NCBI GenBank assembly: GCA_900541695.1 | Contig: UQKL01000003.1 | Span: 62,001 to 126,000, forward strand | Source: an uncultured Collinsella sp. | Lineage (GTDB): Bacteria > Actinomycetota > Coriobacteriia > Coriobacteriales > Coriobacteriaceae | DNA length: 64,000 nucleotides | Direction: 5' to 3' | Shown here: one piece after another, positions 44,131 through 61,129 of the stretch | How the letters are laid out: each line of letters opens with the position of its first letter | Numbering within the stretch: the stretch's first letter is position 1 | Made by a program: the position numbers and the translations under genes | Notes under the pieces: generated by a model | The model's database searches: none | What the model was told of the DNA's origin: nothing | Seen by the model: only the letters and a program-made list of their open reading frames with translations

Positions 44131-44350
44131 GGGAGTGGTGTCAGTTGGCGCTGCGATCCGATAGCTAGAGGAACGGGGCAGCTCGCAGGAGTGCGGACTG
44201 TCGTCTGATTGTTTGAGGGTGCCAGATGTAAATAATCGGTGGAGCGGCTGCAAAAGAGCCGTCTCGCTGGGTAAAATCAGGATGTGCCGCGGAACCCGCT
44301 CCTCAGCTAGTCACACTTCGGAAGCGCGGGCAACGCAGGTATTATCGTCT

Positions 44351-44378
44351 AAAGGGCCGGCTGCAACCGGCCCTTTTT
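44351..44378. terminator. Terminator-like hairpin in the 44.1-44.6 kb gap
   Basis: AAAGGGCCGG (44351-44360) / CCGGCCCTTT (44367-44376), loop CTGCAA, with five T at 44374-44378. The stem can act in either direction. The stretch 44131-44350 upstream has no gene I can support; it could be an untranslated transcript ending here. Confidence 0.8.
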
Positions 44379-52066: not shown

Positions 52067-53830
52067 ATGGCAGATTCCACCACCGATTACAACAATCTAG
52101 ATCCCTTGGGTGACGAGGCGGCGGTTGTCGATGAGGTCGATGCCGCCGTCTCGGGCGCTCGCAAGAAGCCGCGTGCTGTCGATATGGTTCCCGAAGAGCC
52201 CGACGCGATGGCGCCGGACGAGGAATACCAGCTCACGCCGGCAGGCCGCCGCGAACGCATTGGGCAGATCGTTCGCCTGATCAAAAAGTACCGCGTATGG
52301 GATAACCTCACGCCGGTGCGCCTGCGTCGTCTGCTCGAAGAGCTCGGCCCCATGTTCGTCAAGATGGGGCAGATCCTGGCCAACCGGTCCGAGATTTTGC
52401 CGCAGCGGTTTTGCGACGAGCTGCGCCGCCTGCGCTCCGACGTAGACCCGGTGCCGTATGAGGTAGTGCTCCGCTGTCTGGAAGAGGAGTACGGCCAGCG
52501 CCTGGGGCAGATGTTCGACGCGATCGACCCCAACCCGCTCGGAAGCGCGTCGCTCGCGCAGGTACACCGTGCCCGCCTGGTGACGGGCGAGGACGTGGCC
52601 GTTAAGGTGCAGCGCCCCGGCGCGCAACAGGTCATGGCACAGGACATCGACATCATCCGTTCGGTGGTGCGCATCGTTTCCAAGTTCGTCAACACCGACC
52701 AGTTTGTTGACTTACACGGCGTGGTCGAAGAGCTGTGGACCTCGTTTCGCGAGGAGACCAACTTTTTGGCCGAGGCAAAAAATCTCAACGATTTCTATGA
52801 CTTCCACAAAAGCGTGCATGGCGTTTCGTGTCCCAAATCCTACCTGGACCTTTGCACCGAACACGTCGTGGTCATGGACTACATCGACGGCATCTCCATT
52901 GCCGATCCCGAGCGCCTGGTGGCCGAGGGCTATGACCTGGAAAAGATCGGCTCGGCGATCGTCGAGGACTATTCGACGCAGGTGCTCGACGACGGCTTTT
53001 TCCATGCCGACCCGCATGCGGGAAACATCATCCTCAAGGACGGCATTGTCTACTTTATTGACCTGGGCATGGTCGGGCGCATGTCGAGCCACGACCGCGG
53101 TATCGTCAAGGATATGATCTTTGCCGTGGCCGAGGGCGATGTGCCCAAGCTCAAGGATTCGCTCATGCGTTTTGCCGTGACGCGCGGTGATTCGGCCGAG
53201 CTCGACCATTCGGCCTTTTTGTCCGATTTGGACTTTATCGTAGCCGACTTTGCAGGACTCGATCTTAAGGACCTGGATATCGGCGAGTTTTTGACCTCGC
53301 TGTTAAACCTCGCGCGTAAGAATGACGTTGAGCTGCCGAGCGTGGTGACGATGTTCGCCCGCGGCATGGTGACGCTCGAGGGTCTGCTGACCGAGTACAT
53401 GCCCAACGTCAACATGATCCAGATCATCCAAGCGCACATCAAAAACGAGAAGAGCGCCTATGCGCGCGTCCGCGAAATGGGGCGCGACTTTGCGGCGAGC
53501 AGCTATCGCGCGGCAAAAGGCTCGCTCGAGGCGGCCGAGTATCTGGGCTTGGCGTCGCGTATGCTCACGCGCGGCCAGCTCAAGCTGAACTTGCAGCTCA
53601 TGAGTAGCGACAAGGCGCTGCGTCAGATAGGCGGCATCGTCGACCGCATGTCAATGGCCATTGTCATTGCCGGCCTGTTTATCGGTTCCTCGGTGGTCTA
53701 CTATGCGCGCATCGAGCCTGTTGTGCTCGGTATTCCGATCATCGGCTTTGTTGGCTATGTGAGCGCGCTGGTTTTGGCGCTCATGCTGGGCCGCAATATC
53801 TGGCGCAACAGTCACGGCGGCAAGCACTAG
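52067..53830 (+). CDS. AarF/UbiB (ABC1) family atypical kinase
   Basis: This 587-residue protein has the family-specific KxGQ motif (FVKMGQILANRSEILP near residue 102), nucleotide-site loop NPLGSASLAQVHRA with the A-rich loop near 160, VAVKVQRPG near 178, HADPHAGNI near 315 (catalytic Asp/Asn) and FIDLGMVGRM near 330. Two transmembrane segments end the protein (about 530-580). UbiB members support isoprenoid-lipid metabolism through ATPase activity; in a quinone-poor anaerobe the lipid partner is unclear. It is in an operon with a phasin-like gene. Confidence 0.92.
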   Translation: MADSTTDYNNLDPLGDEAAVVDEVDAAVSGARKKPRAVDMVPEEPDAMAPDEEYQLTPAGRRERIGQIVRLIKKYRVWDNLTPVRLRRLLEELGPMFVKMGQILANRSEILPQRFCDELRRLRSDVDPVPYEVVLRCLEEEYGQRLGQMFDAIDPNPLGSASLAQVHRARLVTGEDVAVKVQRPGAQQVMAQDIDIIRSVVRIVSKFVNTDQFVDLHGVVEELWTSFREETNFLAEAKNLNDFYDFHKSVHGVSCPKSYLDLCTEHVVVMDYIDGISIADPERLVAEGYDLEKIGSAIVEDYSTQVLDDGFFHADPHAGNIILKDGIVYFIDLGMVGRMSSHDRGIVKDMIFAVAEGDVPKLKDSLMRFAVTRGDSAELDHSAFLSDLDFIVADFAGLDLKDLDIGEFLTSLLNLARKNDVELPSVVTMFARGMVTLEGLLTEYMPNVNMIQIIQAHIKNEKSAYARVREMGRDFAASSYRAAKGSLEAAEYLGLASRMLTRGQLKLNLQLMSSDKALRQIGGIVDRMSMAIVIAGLFIGSSVVYYARIEPVVLGIPIIGFVGYVSALVLALMLGRNIWRNSHGGKH

Positions 53831-53934
53831 CGTAGCTGCACGGTGTCTTGTCCCACGGCGCCCTTCCATACCCAACTCTTTCCTATCGCAAACAATAGCT
53901 TTTACCTTGGGCTTCGCCTGCGTACGGGGCCCTT

Positions 53935-53963
53935 TTGCGTGATACCATACTGACAGTAATAAT
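53935..53963 (+). promoter_or_regulatory. Promoter for the riboswitch transcript
   Basis: TTGCGT (53935-53940), 17-bp spacer, AATAAT (53958-53963). The transcript would start near 53970, at the beginning of the riboswitch. Confidence 0.5.
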
Positions 53964-53965
53964 CA

Positions 53966-54160
53966 ATGGCCTAGATGGTGGTGCGGAGACGCACGAATGC
54001 GTGGTTTTCCTGCGCATTTGGGAGAATCGGGGTGCAAGTCCCCGGCTGTACCAGTAACCGTAATTCCTCTTGGCTCGGGATGCTCGCGTCGCAGATCGGA
54101 CGACGTACCCGAGCCGTTAAGGTTAAGTCGGATCGCCTCCCATCTTGCATGCGGCTGCGG
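53966..54160 (+). promoter_or_regulatory. Cobalamin riboswitch
   Basis: The conserved core is visible: TGGGAGAATC, GGGGTGCAAGTCCCC (the GGTGnAAnTCC box), CTGTACCAGTAACCGTAA (54045-54062; compare CnGnCCCGCnACnGT), a long paired arm with TCGGGATG and ACCCGAG, and the closing AAGTCGGATCGCCTCCC (54123-54139), the counterpart of AGYCAGGAGACC. Downstream, ATGCGGC/GCCGC pairing just before the ribosome binding site (GGAGGGAAGGGGG) suggests translational control. The RNA precedes two DUF4430 surface-protein genes. Exact ends are estimated. Confidence 0.85.
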
Positions 54161-54207
54161 CGTATGCCGCCGGTGTGCATAGGGCTCTGGAGGGAAGGGG
54201 GACCCCG

Positions 54208-57200
54208 ATGGGGGAACTCGAGCGCAGCATGCGCGATGACGTGGGGCAGCCTCAGGGCAACGCTCCAAGTACAGACAATGGGGGACAAATGGATATGTTT
54301 GAGGACGAGCGCAAGCGCGCCTCGTTGCGTCGCCATGGGGCGATCGCGCGCGGCGTAGCCAAGCGCGGCCTGGTGGCATTCCTGGCCTTCGCGATGGCCT
54401 TTGGCACCACACCGGCCCAGCTGTGGGCCGATGGCGCCGAGGGCATTGCCGAGGCCGTGGCTCAGGCCACAATGCCGAGCGAGGGCGCGCAGGCCACGGA
54501 CGGTACTGCAGATACTACCGCGGCTGCTGCCGACGCAAACGATTCGGCTGCAGGTGGCTCCTCCGAAACTGGGGATACGGGTTCGGCCGCGCCTGACAAC
54601 GTGAGCGATGATGCATCGGACGACCCCGCTGCGTCAGACCCTGCTTCGGCCACCCCGGCGAGCGAGGCGTCTGACACCACCGCCGAGACCGGCGACGCGA
54701 CTGCGGTGGCCAGCGAGCCCAGTGTTGCCAAGGCCGCGTCTCGTGCCGCTGATACGTTTTCCTCGAATAATGGTGTCAGCGTCGGAAAAAGCCAGTCGCC
54801 TTCTCGTTGGGCTGGCTCTAACTTCACCGCTTTTATCCAGAGCAATACTACGCTCTATGCGAATGTTTGGACTTCGTCCAGCAAGCGCGCCAGCGCTTCG
54901 GGCTGCACCTATCAGTGGCTTGCTGCCGACATCAGCAACAAGAGCGATGCGGACAATTCCGCATTTGTTCCTGTCGAGGGCCAGACGGGCGCATCGATCG
55001 TTTTGGACGATGCCCTGCGTACTCAGCTTAACGGCAAGTGCCTGCGCGTACGCATTACCGATGCAAGCGGTAACGTCATCTACGGCCCGACCAAGGGCGC
55101 CAACAACCAAAAGCTGACGGCGACGAACACCATCAAGGCACCCGTTCCTACCAAGACGGCCCTGGATGCAAAGTCTTATGTCCTCATCCAGTCTTCGGCA
55201 GACGATTCGAGCTCGTATTCGTCCGTCAAGGCCGAGATACTGAACCCTGGCACTACACTTTGGGCGAATGCCTACGACGGCGAAGCGGTCCCCAATAAGC
55301 GTATTGCGGCGCAGGGTGGCTGGACCTATCAGTGGCTTGCGTCCGATACGCGCGATGCCGAGGACTCTGCCTATCAGGTGATTCCCGGTCAGACCGGCCA
55401 GTCGCTAACGATTACGGACGAACTCGCCTCGCAGCTTGCGGGCAAGTACATTCGCGTTAAGGTTGTCGGCGATGGCCAGGAGCTGTACGGTCCGAGCAGC
55501 TCTTTCGGGACGCCCGCGTCTGTTGGCTACAATACGCCGGGTCCTGTTGCCGCGAGTGACCAGATCGCGTTAGGCCACATCGTTCTCGCCTATAACGGCG
55601 CCGAATTTGGCGACGATTATGAGAACGTCCCCAACGCTAACGTCGGTGACACGATTAAGGCTGCCGCCTACTACCTTAACTACGACACGCCGACTGACCT
55701 CTATGGCTCCGACAAGGTCGATTTTTCTTGGTGGGTGGCCGATTCTGCTGACGGCACGTTCGAGCAGGTTGCAACTGGTGATACCTTCACGGTTACCAAG
55801 GAGTGCGCGAACCGCTACCTCAAGGTGGTCGCAAAGGCCAAGAAGGGTATCCCCGGCTCCGATAGCTGTGAGACCAAGGCGGGCCGCATTCTGCCCAAGG
55901 GCGCGACGACGCTCGATTCAGTTGCATTTACCAATGCGAGCAAGGGCGCCAAGGACACTGGCTCTACGATTGAGGCGTGCGCCTACAAGGCGGTCGATTA
56001 CTCGTCTGAGCCGGTTACCGAGGGCGTTACCTACACGTGGCGTTGGTCCTCTGTCGACCCGTCTTCCTCTGCGTTTGATGCGAAGACCGACTGGCATGTG
56101 GTCGAGGGCAAAACCGACAGCAGCTTTACGATTCCCGATGACTACGCCAAGCGCTGGGTGAGCGTGTCGGCCACTGCGGGCGATAACACCGTAGAGGCGA
56201 CTACTGCTGTGGCCGTTAAGGCCGCAGGCTCGCACGAGCTGTTCCTGGCGTATCTCAAAAAGATCGTCGGCGATCAGAGCGATGACGCCAAGTTTGTCTA
56301 CAAGAGTGGCGAAAAGATCGGTGTTACTGCATTCGAGAAGACGTCTGCAGGAACAAAGGGTGCCGAGCTTACATCTGATCAACTGACGTATACGTGGCAG
56401 ATTGCCGATAGCGCCCAGGGTCCGTTCACGACGCTGACGGATGAGAACGCGCACAGGCCGTCGTTCGTAATTTCGCAAAAGTACGTCGGCAAGTACCTCA
56501 AGTGCATCGTCGACGGTGGCTACAACACCGACTATGCCTCCACGCGTTATGCCATCGTCAAGGGCGAAGATGCCAAGGCGTATACCCTGACATCGGTTAA
56601 TGTCGCTTCGAGCGGCAACCTTGCACAGGTCGGCGGAACGCTTACCCCTACTGCCAATTACATGGCAACGGGCGATTGGGGCGATTACGAGACGGCACTC
56701 CCCGAGGGCTCCCTCGTCGATTACCGCTGGTATCTCGCCGATGACGCTGAGGGCACAAATGCCCACGAGCTGTTTGGCGCCGACGAAACGACCGGCGCGA
56801 TCACGCTTCCCGCCTCGGCTGAGGGCAAATACGCCTATGTCGTGGCAAACGCCGGCAACAACGATGTCAAGAGCACCGCTTGGCTCGTTAATTCTTCCGA
56901 CGAAAAGTCTCTTTCCGTTAACGTCAGGGTTGTAGGCGTAAGCAAGCACGATGTCGGTCAGTCCTATGACCTTGTGGACTGGGTGCCGACGGCCTCGTTT
57001 GAGTGGTCGAGTACCCAAAAAATGTCTGCCTGGGACATCTTTGCCAAGGTGCTTGACGACGCCGGCTATAGCTATAGCACGGACGGCGGCGTTCCCTATT
57101 CGGTTACGAACCCCGATAAGTCCCAGACGCTCGCGATGGAAAACACGGCGTCCGGCTATAAGTACTGGCGTTTTGATATTAATGGCAAGGCTGCCAACTC

Positions 57201-60200
57201 TTATGCCACGGGCTACTACCCGAGCGATGGCGACACGCTCGAGCTCGTGTACGAGGATCCCACGGGCACGGTTTCCACGCAGGTTTCCGCGACGTGTTCG
57301 GTCGTCGGCACCGACGCCAAGGGTGCTCAGCAGACCTGGGCCGCCGCTCAGAGCATTACGCTGAAGAAGGGCTCGACCGCGGCCGACCTCTCCGAGCAGC
57401 TCTTCAAGCAGACCGGCCTCAAGGCGGACTACGACCCCAACGGCTCCTGGGGCTGGGCGCTCAATTCGATCACGTCGCCCTTCGACTCCGGCCGCACGCT
57501 CGCCTACGACCCGACGACCGAAGCGTACTGGCAGCTGTTCATCAACGGCAAGTCCTCCATGGTCGGCGCCGGCGGCTACACGCTCAAGGCCGGCGACTCC
57601 GTCGTCTGGTACTACTCGAAGTACAACGACCCCGCTCCTGCCGATCAGCTTTCGGTAAGCTGCACCGTTATCGGCCAGGATGCTTCGGGCGCCCGGCAGA
57701 CGTGGGCACAGCCTACGACAGCTCTCGTGGACGAGGGAACAACCGCTGCTGACCTTTCCGAGCAGATCTTTAAAAAGTCTGGCATTGGCGCCAAAACGGG
57801 GGAGAGCTCGTTTGGCTGGTATCTCGAGTCGCTGACCTCGCCGTTCGAAAAGAACGTGACCCTCTCGAGCGAGAAGGTTGACGAAAACACCTGGAAATAT
57901 TGGCAGTTCTTTGTCAATGGCAAGCCTGTTGATGTTGGTGCGGGCGCCTATACGCTTAAGGCAAGCGACGAGATTGCTTGGGTCTATGGCTCCGACGGCA
58001 CCATGCCTGGTCAGGTCTCCGTTTCGATGGAGATCATCGGCAAGAAGGACGATAAGGCTCAGCGCTGGACTGATCCTTCGATGCAGGTGTTTGTCGAGGG
58101 CACGACGATCAAGGATGCCTCTGCTGCCTACTTCGATGCCGTTGGCGTCAAGTCCAAGATGTACGACCAATTTGGTTATTGGGGCGTTCACACTCTTGTC
58201 TCTCCGCTTGATGGCACCGAGCTGTCGGGTGCTTGGTCGTTCTTTGTCAACGGCGTTCCTGGGTCTCAGCTCGATAGCGACTATGTGCTCAAGTCGGGTG
58301 ACAAGATCGTCTGGGCTTATGCTGCTGGCGATACCGTTCCTAATCCCGATGAAGTCGTAGTTGATCCGAGCGCTTCGCGCCCGACCGATTGGAAAGCCGA
58401 CTGGAGCGGCAATTCCAATGCGGTGGTCGAGAACGTGTCCACGCCTACGGGCGCGCTGGCAAGCTCTTGGACGTTTGATTGGAAGGCCTATTCGGGCGCC
58501 ACGTACCCCAACGCGAGCGAGCCGATTGTCGTAAACGGCAATGTGTATCTCGCCGTCAACAAGCGCCTGCTTAAGATCGATGCCGAGTCGGGCAAGGTGC
58601 TGGCCGAGTCGAATCTTAAGACTGCGATTGGCTACACGACGCGTCCGATTTATACGAACGGCTTGGTCATCGTCCCGCTCGATGGCGGTGCGGTCCAGGC
58701 TCTGACGGCCGATACGCTCACGACGGTTTGGGTTACCGACCCTGTGAGCAAAACTGCTCAGTCGAATTCTCAGCTGACGGTCGATGGCAACTATCTCTAT
58801 GTCGGCACCGTTGATGTCGACTATGGTAAGGGCGTGTATAACAACGGCCATCTGACGCGCATCAATATCCTGACCGGTGCCGTTTCCTGGCAGCACGTCA
58901 ACGCCGATGAGGGTTATTACTGGACGGGCGCTACCGTGGGTGACGGCTTTATTCTGGTTCCCACCAGCGCCGGTACCGTTGAGATGCTCAGCAAGTCTTC
59001 GGGCGCTGTGCTTGGAAGCGTTTCCGTTGGGGCTATCGTTAACTCCTCCTGTGTGCTCTCCGCCGACGGTAGCCATGCTTATCTGATTTCGCGCGATGGC
59101 AAGCTGCACGTTTTGGCGATTTCTGACGGTAGTTCGCGTGATGCGGATGCCGCTTCGCGCATTTCCGAAGAGCGCGTCGTCGACCTGGGTCTTACGGGAT
59201 GCGCCTGCATGCCTACGCTGTATGGCAACAAGCTGATTGTCGGCGGCGAGGTTTCCGGTGGCTCTGCGCTGGCGATTGTCGACCTTGATAATGACTTTGC
59301 TACGACGTTGGTTTCGTCTGCTGATGGCTCCGCGCTTCCCATCGGCGGCATCAAGGGCGCACCGCTCGTGAGCGCCCAGGCAGATGGCACGTATGTCTAC
59401 TTCACGGTTAACTACGGTGCGACTTCCGACTATGTGAACTACACCTCGGGCGGCGGTGTCTATCGCTACAAGCTGGGTGACGCGCAGGCGACCGGTGCGT
59501 TTAGCGCAACGGGACACAACAACTACTGCGACTCGCCGATTGCCTGCGACGCCAAGGGCAACCTCTACTACATCAACGATTCCGGCACGTTGTTCAAGCT
59601 GAATGGTGGCGTTAAGGTCTCGTTCGAGACTGGCGAGGGTTCCAAGGTCGATTTCCAGACTACGGCCGACGGCAAGCTGGTTAAGCCTGCCGATCCGACG
59701 CGTGAGGGCTACACCTTCGGTGGCTGGTACACCGATGAGGCTTGCACGGAGGCGTATGACTTCAGCACGCCGGTGACGGCCGATATGACGCTGTATGCCA
59801 AGTGGACCAAGAACGCCGTTAACCCTGACGGCAATGGCGGTTCTGGCTCTAACGGTGGCAGCGGCTCCGGCACTGGTGCTGGTACCGGCGCGGGCACTGG
59901 CTCCGGCTCGAAGGGTGGCGCTGTCGCCCCGGGTCAGAAGCCGGTGACCAAGACGACGGTGTCGACCAAGAGCGGGACCAAGGACAACAAGTCCGACAAG
60001 AAGGACTCCGACAAGTCCGACAAGAAGGACGAGAAGAAGTCTGACAAGAAGGACGGCAAGTCCGACAAGGCATCCGCTTCCACGACCACTGCCAAGAAGT
60101 CCACTGAGGCTTCCGCGCAGGAGTCTGGCCTCAACCCGCTCGCTATTGTCGGCATCGCGGCCGGCGTGATCGGCCTCGCGCTCATCGCCGTCTTCATGCT

Positions 60201-60237
60201 GACCAAGCGCGGCAAGGGTGACGGTAATGCCCGATAA
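54208..60237 (+). CDS. Giant surface protein: Ig-like repeats, four DUF4430 domains, PQQ-like propeller, InlB repeat
   Basis: This 2009-residue protein shows, in order: basic N-terminus and signal segment (GLVAFLAFAMAFGTTPAQLWA, residues about 54-74); a D/S/A/T-rich spacer to about 190; six Ig-like repeats of about 110 residues with YQWLA/YTWRW cores (about 200-900); four DUF4430 (transcobalamin C-terminal-like) domains at about 902-1017, 1025-1137, 1147-1261 and 1271-1374, each ending in a VVWYY or VWAYA strand; a PQQ-like beta-propeller (about 1391-1798); an InlB-type repeat (GYTFGGWYTDEACTEAYDFS); a G/S then K/D/S-rich stalk; and a C-terminal TM with basic end. There is no LPxTG. The start follows the riboswitch; ATG 54289 is a possible shorter start. 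Likely role: binding corrinoids or other ligands at the cell surface (inference). Confidence 0.88.
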   Translation: MGELERSMRDDVGQPQGNAPSTDNGGQMDMFEDERKRASLRRHGAIARGVAKRGLVAFLAFAMAFGTTPAQLWADGAEGIAEAVAQATMPSEGAQATDGTADTTAAAADANDSAAGGSSETGDTGSAAPDNVSDDASDDPAASDPASATPASEASDTTAETGDATAVASEPSVAKAASRAADTFSSNNGVSVGKSQSPSRWAGSNFTAFIQSNTTLYANVWTSSSKRASASGCTYQWLAADISNKSDADNSAFVPVEGQTGASIVLDDALRTQLNGKCLRVRITDASGNVIYGPTKGANNQKLTATNTIKAPVPTKTALDAKSYVLIQSSADDSSSYSSVKAEILNPGTTLWANAYDGEAVPNKRIAAQGGWTYQWLASDTRDAEDSAYQVIPGQTGQSLTITDELASQLAGKYIRVKVVGDGQELYGPSSSFGTPASVGYNTPGPVAASDQIALGHIVLAYNGAEFGDDYENVPNANVGDTIKAAAYYLNYDTPTDLYGSDKVDFSWWVADSADGTFEQVATGDTFTVTKECANRYLKVVAKAKKGIPGSDSCETKAGRILPKGATTLDSVAFTNASKGAKDTGSTIEACAYKAVDYSSEPVTEGVTYTWRWSSVDPSSSAFDAKTDWHVVEGKTDSSFTIPDDYAKRWVSVSATAGDNTVEATTAVAVKAAGSHELFLAYLKKIVGDQSDDAKFVYKSGEKIGVTAFEKTSAGTKGAELTSDQLTYTWQIADSAQGPFTTLTDENAHRPSFVISQKYVGKYLKCIVDGGYNTDYASTRYAIVKGEDAKAYTLTSVNVASSGNLAQVGGTLTPTANYMATGDWGDYETALPEGSLVDYRWYLADDAEGTNAHELFGADETTGAITLPASAEGKYAYVVANAGNNDVKSTAWLVNSSDEKSLSVNVRVVGVSKHDVGQSYDLVDWVPTASFEWSSTQKMSAWDIFAKVLDDAGYSYSTDGGVPYSVTNPDKSQTLAMENTASGYKYWRFDINGKAANSYATGYYPSDGDTLELVYEDPTGTVSTQVSATCSVVGTDAKGAQQTWAAAQSITLKKGSTAADLSEQLFKQTGLKADYDPNGSWGWALNSITSPFDSGRTLAYDPTTEAYWQLFINGKSSMVGAGGYTLKAGDSVVWYYSKYNDPAPADQLSVSCTVIGQDASGARQTWAQPTTALVDEGTTAADLSEQIFKKSGIGAKTGESSFGWYLESLTSPFEKNVTLSSEKVDENTWKYWQFFVNGKPVDVGAGAYTLKASDEIAWVYGSDGTMPGQVSVSMEIIGKKDDKAQRWTDPSMQVFVEGTTIKDASAAYFDAVGVKSKMYDQFGYWGVHTLVSPLDGTELSGAWSFFVNGVPGSQLDSDYVLKSGDKIVWAYAAGDTVPNPDEVVVDPSASRPTDWKADWSGNSNAVVENVSTPTGALASSWTFDWKAYSGATYPNASEPIVVNGNVYLAVNKRLLKIDAESGKVLAESNLKTAIGYTTRPIYTNGLVIVPLDGGAVQALTADTLTTVWVTDPVSKTAQSNSQLTVDGNYLYVGTVDVDYGKGVYNNGHLTRINILTGAVSWQHVNADEGYYWTGATVGDGFILVPTSAGTVEMLSKSSGAVLGSVSVGAIVNSSCVLSADGSHAYLISRDGKLHVLAISDGSSRDADAASRISEERVVDLGLTGCACMPTLYGNKLIVGGEVSGGSALAIVDLDNDFATTLVSSADGSALPIGGIKGAPLVSAQADGTYVYFTVNYGATSDYVNYTSGGGVYRYKLGDAQATGAFSATGHNNYCDSPIACDAKGNLYYINDSGTLFKLNGGVKVSFETGEGSKVDFQTTADGKLVKPADPTREGYTFGGWYTDEACTEAYDFSTPVTADMTLYAKWTKNAVNPDGNGGSGSNGGSGSGTGAGTGAGTGSGSKGGAVAPGQKPVTKTTVSTKSGTKDNKSDKKDSDKSDKKDEKKSDKKDGKSDKASASTTTAKKSTEASAQESGLNPLAIVGIAAGVIGLALIAVFMLTKRGKGDGNAR

Positions 60238-61129
60238 GCCCAAGGGGACCAACGGGCAGCAGCCCGACTCCTCGTTTATCCAGCTCGACGATGCAAAGCA
60301 AAAGGGCGCCGCTTCGGCGGCGTCCGCCCCGCGGCGCAAGGCGATGCTTGGCGCTCTGACCGCGGTTTGTATCGCGTTGATCGTCGTATCGCTGGGCTTT
60401 GTCCACCCCTCCGAGAGCGGCGCCTGGTCCATTGATTGGATCGTCCAGACCGTGACGGGGGAGAGCGTCGTCGCCAATGATGCCAAGGTGCCTGGTTCGG
60501 CTGCTGCTTCTAGCAAGGCCGACTCCAAGAATTCCAAGGTTTCGGGCGATGCGAAAGATAAGTCCAAGGACTCGGGTGACGCCAAGGGCGATTCCGAGTC
60601 TTCGAACAAGAGCTCGGATAAAAACTCGGAAGGCAAAAAGTCCGAAGAGCAGGATGGCAAGAAGTCTGGCGAAGCATCGGTTTCTCAGAATACCGGAGCT
60701 GCCGATACGACCAACACGTCTGGCGGTGCCTCTTCGGGCGGTGGCCAGTCGTCTGGCGGGGCCACGGCCTCTAACGGCGGAGGCGCTTCCACGGGCGGCC
60801 AGGGTGGCTCGCAGGAGTCTGGATACGTTACTGTGTCGGTCTCGGTTACGTCGAGTGCCGTGGGCAATCCTGTGTCCGCCGGCGGCACCTATACCTTTAA
60901 CGAAGGTGCCACCGTCTACGACGCCCTATGCGCGCTCGGGCTTTCCGTCAACGCACACGGCTCATCGTACGGCACGTATGTCGCCGCGATCGGCGGTTTG
61001 GCCGAGAAGCAGTATGGCGGCACGAGCGGTTGGATGTACTCTGTCAACGGCTCGACGCCCATGACGGCCTGCAGCAACTACGTTCTCTCCAACGGCGACA
61101 ACGTCGTCTGGTATTACGTAACAGGCTAG
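60227..61129 (+). CDS. Membrane-anchored DUF4430 (transcobalamin-like) protein
   Basis: This 300-residue protein has a short cytoplasmic head, one TM (about 40-60, AMLGALTAVCIALIVVSLGF), a K/S/D-rich stalk (about 80-160), a G/S-rich linker, and a C-terminal DUF4430 domain (about 200-300: EGATVYDALCALGL, GGTSGWMYSVNG, NGDNVVWYYV). It overlaps the preceding gene by 11 bp, so the two are co-translated under the cobalamin riboswitch. It looks like a membrane-proximal partner that could receive ligand from the larger protein (inference). GTG 60218 is an alternative start. Confidence 0.88.
   Translation: MPDKPKGTNGQQPDSSFIQLDDAKQKGAASAASAPRRKAMLGALTAVCIALIVVSLGFVHPSESGAWSIDWIVQTVTGESVVANDAKVPGSAAASSKADSKNSKVSGDAKDKSKDSGDAKGDSESSNKSSDKNSEGKKSEEQDGKKSGEASVSQNTGAADTTNTSGGASSGGGQSSGGATASNGGGASTGGQGGSQESGYVTVSVSVTSSAVGNPVSAGGTYTFNEGATVYDALCALGLSVNAHGSSYGTYVAAIGGLAEKQYGGTSGWMYSVNGSTPMTACSNYVLSNGDNVVWYYVTG

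Follow-up and report, generated by a model that had tools for sequence, protein, structure and literature searches.

The window analysed here is a stretch of 64,000 nucleotides (nt) from an uncultured Collinsella species. Near its end the + strand carries, in this order, a terminator-like hairpin, a cobalamin riboswitch leader and two genes, here called A and B, whose products bear DUF4430 domains. Gene A (54208..60237, ATG at 54208) is preceded by GGAGG at 54189..54193, its likely Shine-Dalgarno sequence, and encodes a surface protein of 2009 amino acids. Gene B (60218..61129, 303 amino acids) starts inside the end of A, with an overlap of 20 nt. The hairpin (53909..53932, + strand, consensus scan) lies behind an upstream ABC1-kinase gene, so the leader upstream of gene A probably opens a transcription unit of its own. 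It is one of two terminator-like hairpins that the scan finds in 53800-54300, against 0.3 expected, the second lying within the aptamer. A consensus scan of the same interval gives no promoter, and the promoter that a sequence-only reading of this DNA had placed before the riboswitch is not retained.

The aptamer spans 53973..54145 on the + strand and is closed by a P1 helix in which AGATGG (53973-53978) pairs with CCATCT (54140-54145). Within it, the Rfam AdoCbl-II family (RF01689) matches 54010..54091 with 32.4 bits (E 8e-6, 501 bases searched), under its gathering score of 36.5, and a scan of the whole window at gathering scores returns the Collinsella-1 RNA only and no cobalamin riboswitch. 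The former RNA (RF01700, 215 bits) lies at 44177-44373. The conserved core with its P5 helix (54020..54063) was also scored with R1, a 44-position core model of our own whose 20 rows, the window included, come from RF01689 matches picked regardless of their neighbours. On the 64-kb window R1 gives a single match, 54020-54063, with 65.7 bits and E 4e-13, the window being among its training rows. A 20-bit RF01689 match in genome G019 is, by eye, a flavin mononucleotide riboswitch and was kept out of R1. The predicted fold of the single leader is no better than that of shuffles (z -0.86), and the case for a riboswitch is therefore built on comparison. An automatic search for P1 tended to settle on chance helices of greater length, also in the window, and P1 was set by eye in the register of AGATGG/CCATCT. 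In other genera, P1 variants read by eye are paired on both sides: GGCTGGC/GCCAGCC at locus L110, TCGAGAG/CTCTCGA at L120 and, at L116, GAAGACGA with TCGTCTTT. The leaders thus have the conserved core, the paired P5 and the closing P1, kept through two-sided changes, that mark the cobalamin riboswitch clan. An L5-L13 kissing interaction is not claimed: UGCAAG (54033) could pair with CUUGCA (54144) in the window, but the pair is not seen in all other leaders.

Among the compared genomes with G numbers, we infer those of the window's genus to be Collinsella. Searched genome-wide with RF01689, 24 of 29 relatives have a match at E <=0.1 and five have one over the cut-off; in three of the five (G014, G016, G019) it lies just upstream of DUF4430 on the same contig. 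Each of 18 same-genus genomes has one match, and three of seven named DUF4430 loci scanned (L105, L106, L117) score over the cut-off, the L105 contig being equal in length to that of G016. R1, which scored per genome the 147 best of 418-836 candidates from a first look, finds one strong core (at least 58 bits) in 41 of the 43 species compared within the genus; it is only weak in G045 and G051, and one extra match near 32 bits occurs in each of G007, G046 and G048. DUF4430 is present in 42 of the 43 genomes, and G051 has neither the domain nor a strong core. Of the 41 strong cores, compared with all 131 DUF4430 rows, 40 share strand and contig with DUF4430 and lie upstream of it, the nearest domain being 350-5359 nt away. 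The 41st, in G007, has its DUF4430 on a different contig, the locus being split by a contig end. Conversely, 125 of the 131 rows are downstream of a core; the other six belong to G007 (two) and G011 (three), both at contig ends, and to G045 (one). A minimal version occurs in G009, G017, G018, G038, G039 and G052, where the riboswitch is followed by a DUF4430 frame of 202-286 amino acids with the domain 350-400 nt away; the G009 protein begins like a lipoprotein (LGGC).

In favour of a chance match at the riboswitch stands the window's score under the Rfam cut-off. Against it stand the strong core that 41 of the 43 species have in this position, the paired P1 and P5 variants and orthologues over the cut-off, which make chance a negligible explanation. 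The sequence-only reading had placed a cobalamin riboswitch core before gene A, with Rfam cobalamin models as the check; the core stands on R1 and on the orthologues, and RF01689 does match at the expected place, while a score over the gathering threshold is reached in some relatives and not in the window.

The link extends beyond the genus. Among the best 80 of 134 B-type DUF4430 loci from a scan of named genomes, 50 have the R1 core, always on the + strand and upstream (52 matches, including the window and a tandem pair). The tandem cores belong to Gordonibacter sp. 28C (L133), at 2292-2335 and 2564-2607, with a spacing of 272 nt, and lie ahead of the DUF4430 operon. For the 30 loci without an R1 core, a scan against the whole of Rfam at gathering scores shows a cobalamin riboswitch of the RF00174 family in four (L119, L123, L139, L155), with 74-108 bits, which brings the total to 54 of 80. 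Since these four are of the RF00174 rather than the RF01689 type, genes of this kind are served by two families of switch. L139 is from Faecalicatena contorta (Lachnospiraceae) and L155 from a Clostridia metagenome-assembled genome; in both genomes the match at the DUF4430 locus is the sole one to RF00174. Neither R1 nor Rfam at gathering scores finds a cobalamin riboswitch at the remaining 26 loci. In 11 of them the contig begins less than 5 kb ahead of the match, and the leader may therefore be missing from it. Guanidine-III riboswitches occur 3-10 kb before DUF4430 loci with importer genes in Olsenella kin (L145, L146, L149, L152, L153, L159). They were rejected as the DUF4430 switch, since they are several kb off with other frames between; all six loci are without a cobalamin riboswitch. 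Within the same order, RF01689 matches under the cut-off (25 and 29 bits) stand before BtuF/BtuC-like genes at L074 and before cbi genes at L078, in keeping with cobalamin as the ligand.

Outside Collinsella, the DUF4430 genes are usually followed by an importer of the energy-coupling factor (ECF) type. The T component lies within 3 kb downstream in 46 of 53 loci and the S component within 8 kb downstream in 42 of 53, nine (T) and five (S) of these loci having been rows of the profiles used. The nearest solved relative of the S profile is 6fnp (E 6e-13, the next best being 0.004), and T matches solved EcfT proteins (E 2e-11). A first L139 frame taken as S fitted poorly and was dropped from the profile; a different L139 frame matches S. 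6FNP is ECF-CbrT, which imports cobalamin and cobinamide, as passages of PMC5997447 describe. By its likeness to CbrT, the linked importer would carry B12.

Neither T (3 kb) nor S (8 kb) follows in any of 27 Collinsella loci. The same T is nonetheless present in all 18 Collinsella genomes (over 300 bits). In three (G009, G017, G018) it adjoins a small DUF4430 gene that the riboswitch precedes; in the other 15 it is on another contig or far off. In the aerofaciens-like L172 and L173, the genes for T, S and a double ATPase are clustered, with other genes for neighbours, and R1 finds no strong core elsewhere in aerofaciens-line genomes. It appears that in the aerofaciens line the operon has been split, the riboswitch staying with the surface pair; the same would hold for the window's own genome.

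As for a need for B12, 16 of 18 Collinsella genomes have a B12-binding domain (PF02310), and in one genome examined it sits in a MetH-like frame (frame read in part); NrdJ is over the cut-off in four of 18. A passage of PMC6593275 places C. aerofaciens among the B12-requiring species despite its B12 synthesis genes. At L182 and L175, both Collinsella, cbi genes lie beside BtuC-like ABC transporter genes; RF00174 has no match in G001, one of the two genomes concerned. The ribonucleotide reductase of G006 and G016 is of the NrdE/NrdA type.

It is conceivable that DUF4430 binds another ligand, be it cobalt, a further metal or some other cofactor, which the ECF importer would carry. The title of the bacterial structure 3u7z, which has the same fold as DUF4430, calls it putative metal binding, cobalt was suggested by the older names CbiO/CbiQ (in passages of PMC1796856), the ECF substrate is deduced from likeness, and G006 and G016 are without the B12 enzymes tested. 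Set against this are the S component, nearest to CbrT among solved structures, the leaders, which match two cobalamin riboswitch families, and the weak RF01689 matches that in kin precede BtuF/BtuC-like and cbi genes. We consider another ligand quite improbable.

Protein B has an N-terminal hydrophobic segment (60347..60403, hydropathy), its predicted membrane anchor, then a long low-complexity linker and a single DUF4430 domain (60821..61126; PF14478, 67.4 bits, E 2e-18, cut-off 23.8). Its closest named relatives in the scan of named genomes are Collinsella proteins. The modelled domain scores far higher with transcobalamin, haptocorrin and intrinsic factor than with other beta-grasp folds, and it is a beta-grasp with a beta-hairpin after the helix, as in the DUF4430/transcobalamin-like SLBB clade. 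A second membrane-anchored protein with one DUF4430 domain, overlapping A and akin to the C-terminal domain of transcobalamin and intrinsic factor, had been predicted from the letters alone, and both points hold. Pfam, up to E 1, finds no alpha/alpha toroid family in A or B.

Protein A begins with a hydrophobic stretch (residues 54-72, 54367..54423, hydropathy), likely a signal peptide. Six YxWxxAD-type repeats follow (54760..56892, outer limits approximate), with motifs at residues 235, 374, 506, 609, 728 and 839; the 15 repeat pairs give z -0.8 to 22, and the first repeat is clearly like the second only. Four stretches match PF14478 (112.9 bits and E 1e-32 overall, cut-off 23.8): 56905..57261 (residues 900-1018), 57277..57627 (1024-1140), 57643..57999 (1146-1264) and 58009..58332 (1268-1375). 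Next come a beta-propeller (58387..59610), PQQ/ACSF4-like in Pfam at E 8e-7, far under that family's own cut-off, and an InlB-type (Listeria-Bacteroides) repeat (59614..59802, Pfam E 5e-19). A low-complexity stretch is also present. The C-terminal hydrophobic segment (60145..60201, hydropathy) is the predicted membrane anchor, and there is no LPXTG-like motif in A. The architecture of the sequence-only reading is thereby largely recovered: the four DUF4430 domains, propeller, InlB repeat and anchor are found. The six repeats are there too, but their immunoglobulin-like nature is probable at most, since Pfam gives them no such name; the repeat region in a relative matches aBig_2.

The repeats, the propeller and the InlB repeat would suit a surface adhesion protein, and this raises the possibility that A and B are adhesins or wall scaffolds whose DUF4430 domains bind protein or glycan and which are merely regulated by B12, for example because B12 reports the gut niche. 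Length differs between strains (homologues of 1111-2452 amino acids among those seen, one search having admitted only 0.55-1.75 times the query length), and the nearest folds of the propeller include BamB, YxaL and Rv3035. However, the smallest versions (202-286 amino acids in G009, G017 and G018, with ECF T next to them) are too short for adhesin parts, T follows DUF4430 in most loci of other genera, and the fold is nearest to B12 carriers. The adhesin explanation is for these reasons unlikely.

A bolder proposal would give the Coriobacteria a working counterpart of transcobalamin, in which the corrinoid would be clamped between DUF4430 and the propeller, the latter replacing the alpha/alpha toroid of the animal carriers. 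The four tandem domains would then act as a multi-site sponge in competition with host intrinsic factor and Bacteroides for B12, which would itself switch the system off. This we regard as doubtful. BtuG is itself a propeller. It is absent among the matches listed for the propeller of A, though the two may be akin; one relative has a weak match to DUF5074 (E 3e-4, under the cut-off), which we guess to be the family of BtuG.

The best reading, to which we give a probability of about 0.78, is that the locus encodes a B12-repressed surface system for corrinoid capture that feeds a CbrT-type ECF importer. At low cellular cobalamin the riboswitch would leave gene A open for translation; control is probably translational because the consensus scan finds no terminator-like hairpin between the aptamer and the start codon of A. 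B would be translated after A, probably by coupling. Both proteins are predicted from their hydrophobic segments to be exported and held at the membrane, where the five DUF4430 domains may bind corrinoids outside, as fold, regulation and gene context suggest. The corrinoids would be handed to the CbrT-type importer, whose presence is seen in kin. The propeller, the repeats and the InlB repeat most likely serve as a scaffold and to span the wall. Surface binding and hand-over, as first proposed from the letters, thus gain support from fold, regulation and gene context, binding itself being a prediction.

Several observations weigh against corrinoid capture. At 15 of the 80 loci, mostly of Olsenella, Atopobium and Tractidigestivibacter, at least 6.9 kb of upstream sequence contains no cobalamin riboswitch at the sensitivity of R1 and Rfam, G045 has DUF4430 but no strong core, and the window's 32.4 bits fall short of the curated RF01689 cut-off. 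The gene cbiD is present in eight of 18 Collinsella genomes, and in G006 and G016 none of PF02310, QueG and NrdJ is over the cut-off, though core, DUF4430 and ECF T are kept. By sequence, a profile of the four A domains misses transcobalamin and reaches haptocorrin at E 0.14, behind a thiol-disulphide protein (0.11). A profile of 33 B-type domains also misses transcobalamin (3u7z, 0.41). Only a mixed 15-row profile reaches it (E 2e-5), with an antibody chain (0.019) outranking intrinsic factor (0.027).

Alternatively, A and B may act as signalling sensors of B12 on the cell surface instead of feeding uptake. Intracellular SLBB domains fused to DNA-binding domains have been discussed as possible sensors in sections of Burroughs et al. 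2007 (PMC1796856). Pfam finds no signalling domain in A or B, however, and importer genes adjoin most loci of other genera, so that a sensor is very improbable.

Corrinoid capture by such proteins is, as a prediction, of a kind already known, since Burroughs et al. 2007, in parts of PMC1796856, predicted that surface SLBB proteins of Gram-positives scavenge B12 and noted immunoglobulin-fold and propeller fusions, second SLBB paralogues in the operon and CbiO/CbiQ genes. All these features recur here. The present systems differ from theirs in the riboswitch link, the four DUF4430 domains on one chain, an S component that resembles CbrT and, in most Collinsella, an importer encoded away from the locus. 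In the passages of that paper on scavenging no experimental test of it was seen, and the word riboswitch is absent from its main text. In the printed literature, within a scope that took in few subscription papers and no preprints, nothing was found on the riboswitch link, a CbrT-type S beside DUF4430 or the split operon, which are therefore the parts not found in earlier work; nor did a report of B12 binding by these surface proteins come to light there.

Human transcobalamin, haptocorrin and intrinsic factor have a beta domain of the same fold as the modelled DUF4430, down to the hairpin that follows the helix. Unlike these carriers, A and B are without a toroid by Pfam and are membrane-anchored, and A has several beta domains. 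The linked importer resembles ECF-CbrT (6FNP, PMC5997447) in its S and in its match to EcfT, but has its own double ATPase, its own T and surface DUF4430 proteins in front. BtuG and BtuH of Bacteroides are likewise described, in abstracts, as surface proteins for B12 capture, but they are Gram-negative lipoproteins working with BtuB.

B12 capture by Gram-positive gut bacteria is little known. According to a passage of the survey in PMC6593275, the B12 transport systems of numerous gut genomes are still to be identified. This locus makes the prediction of 2007 directly testable: its riboswitch is defined, and it offers two proteins and a domain of small size.
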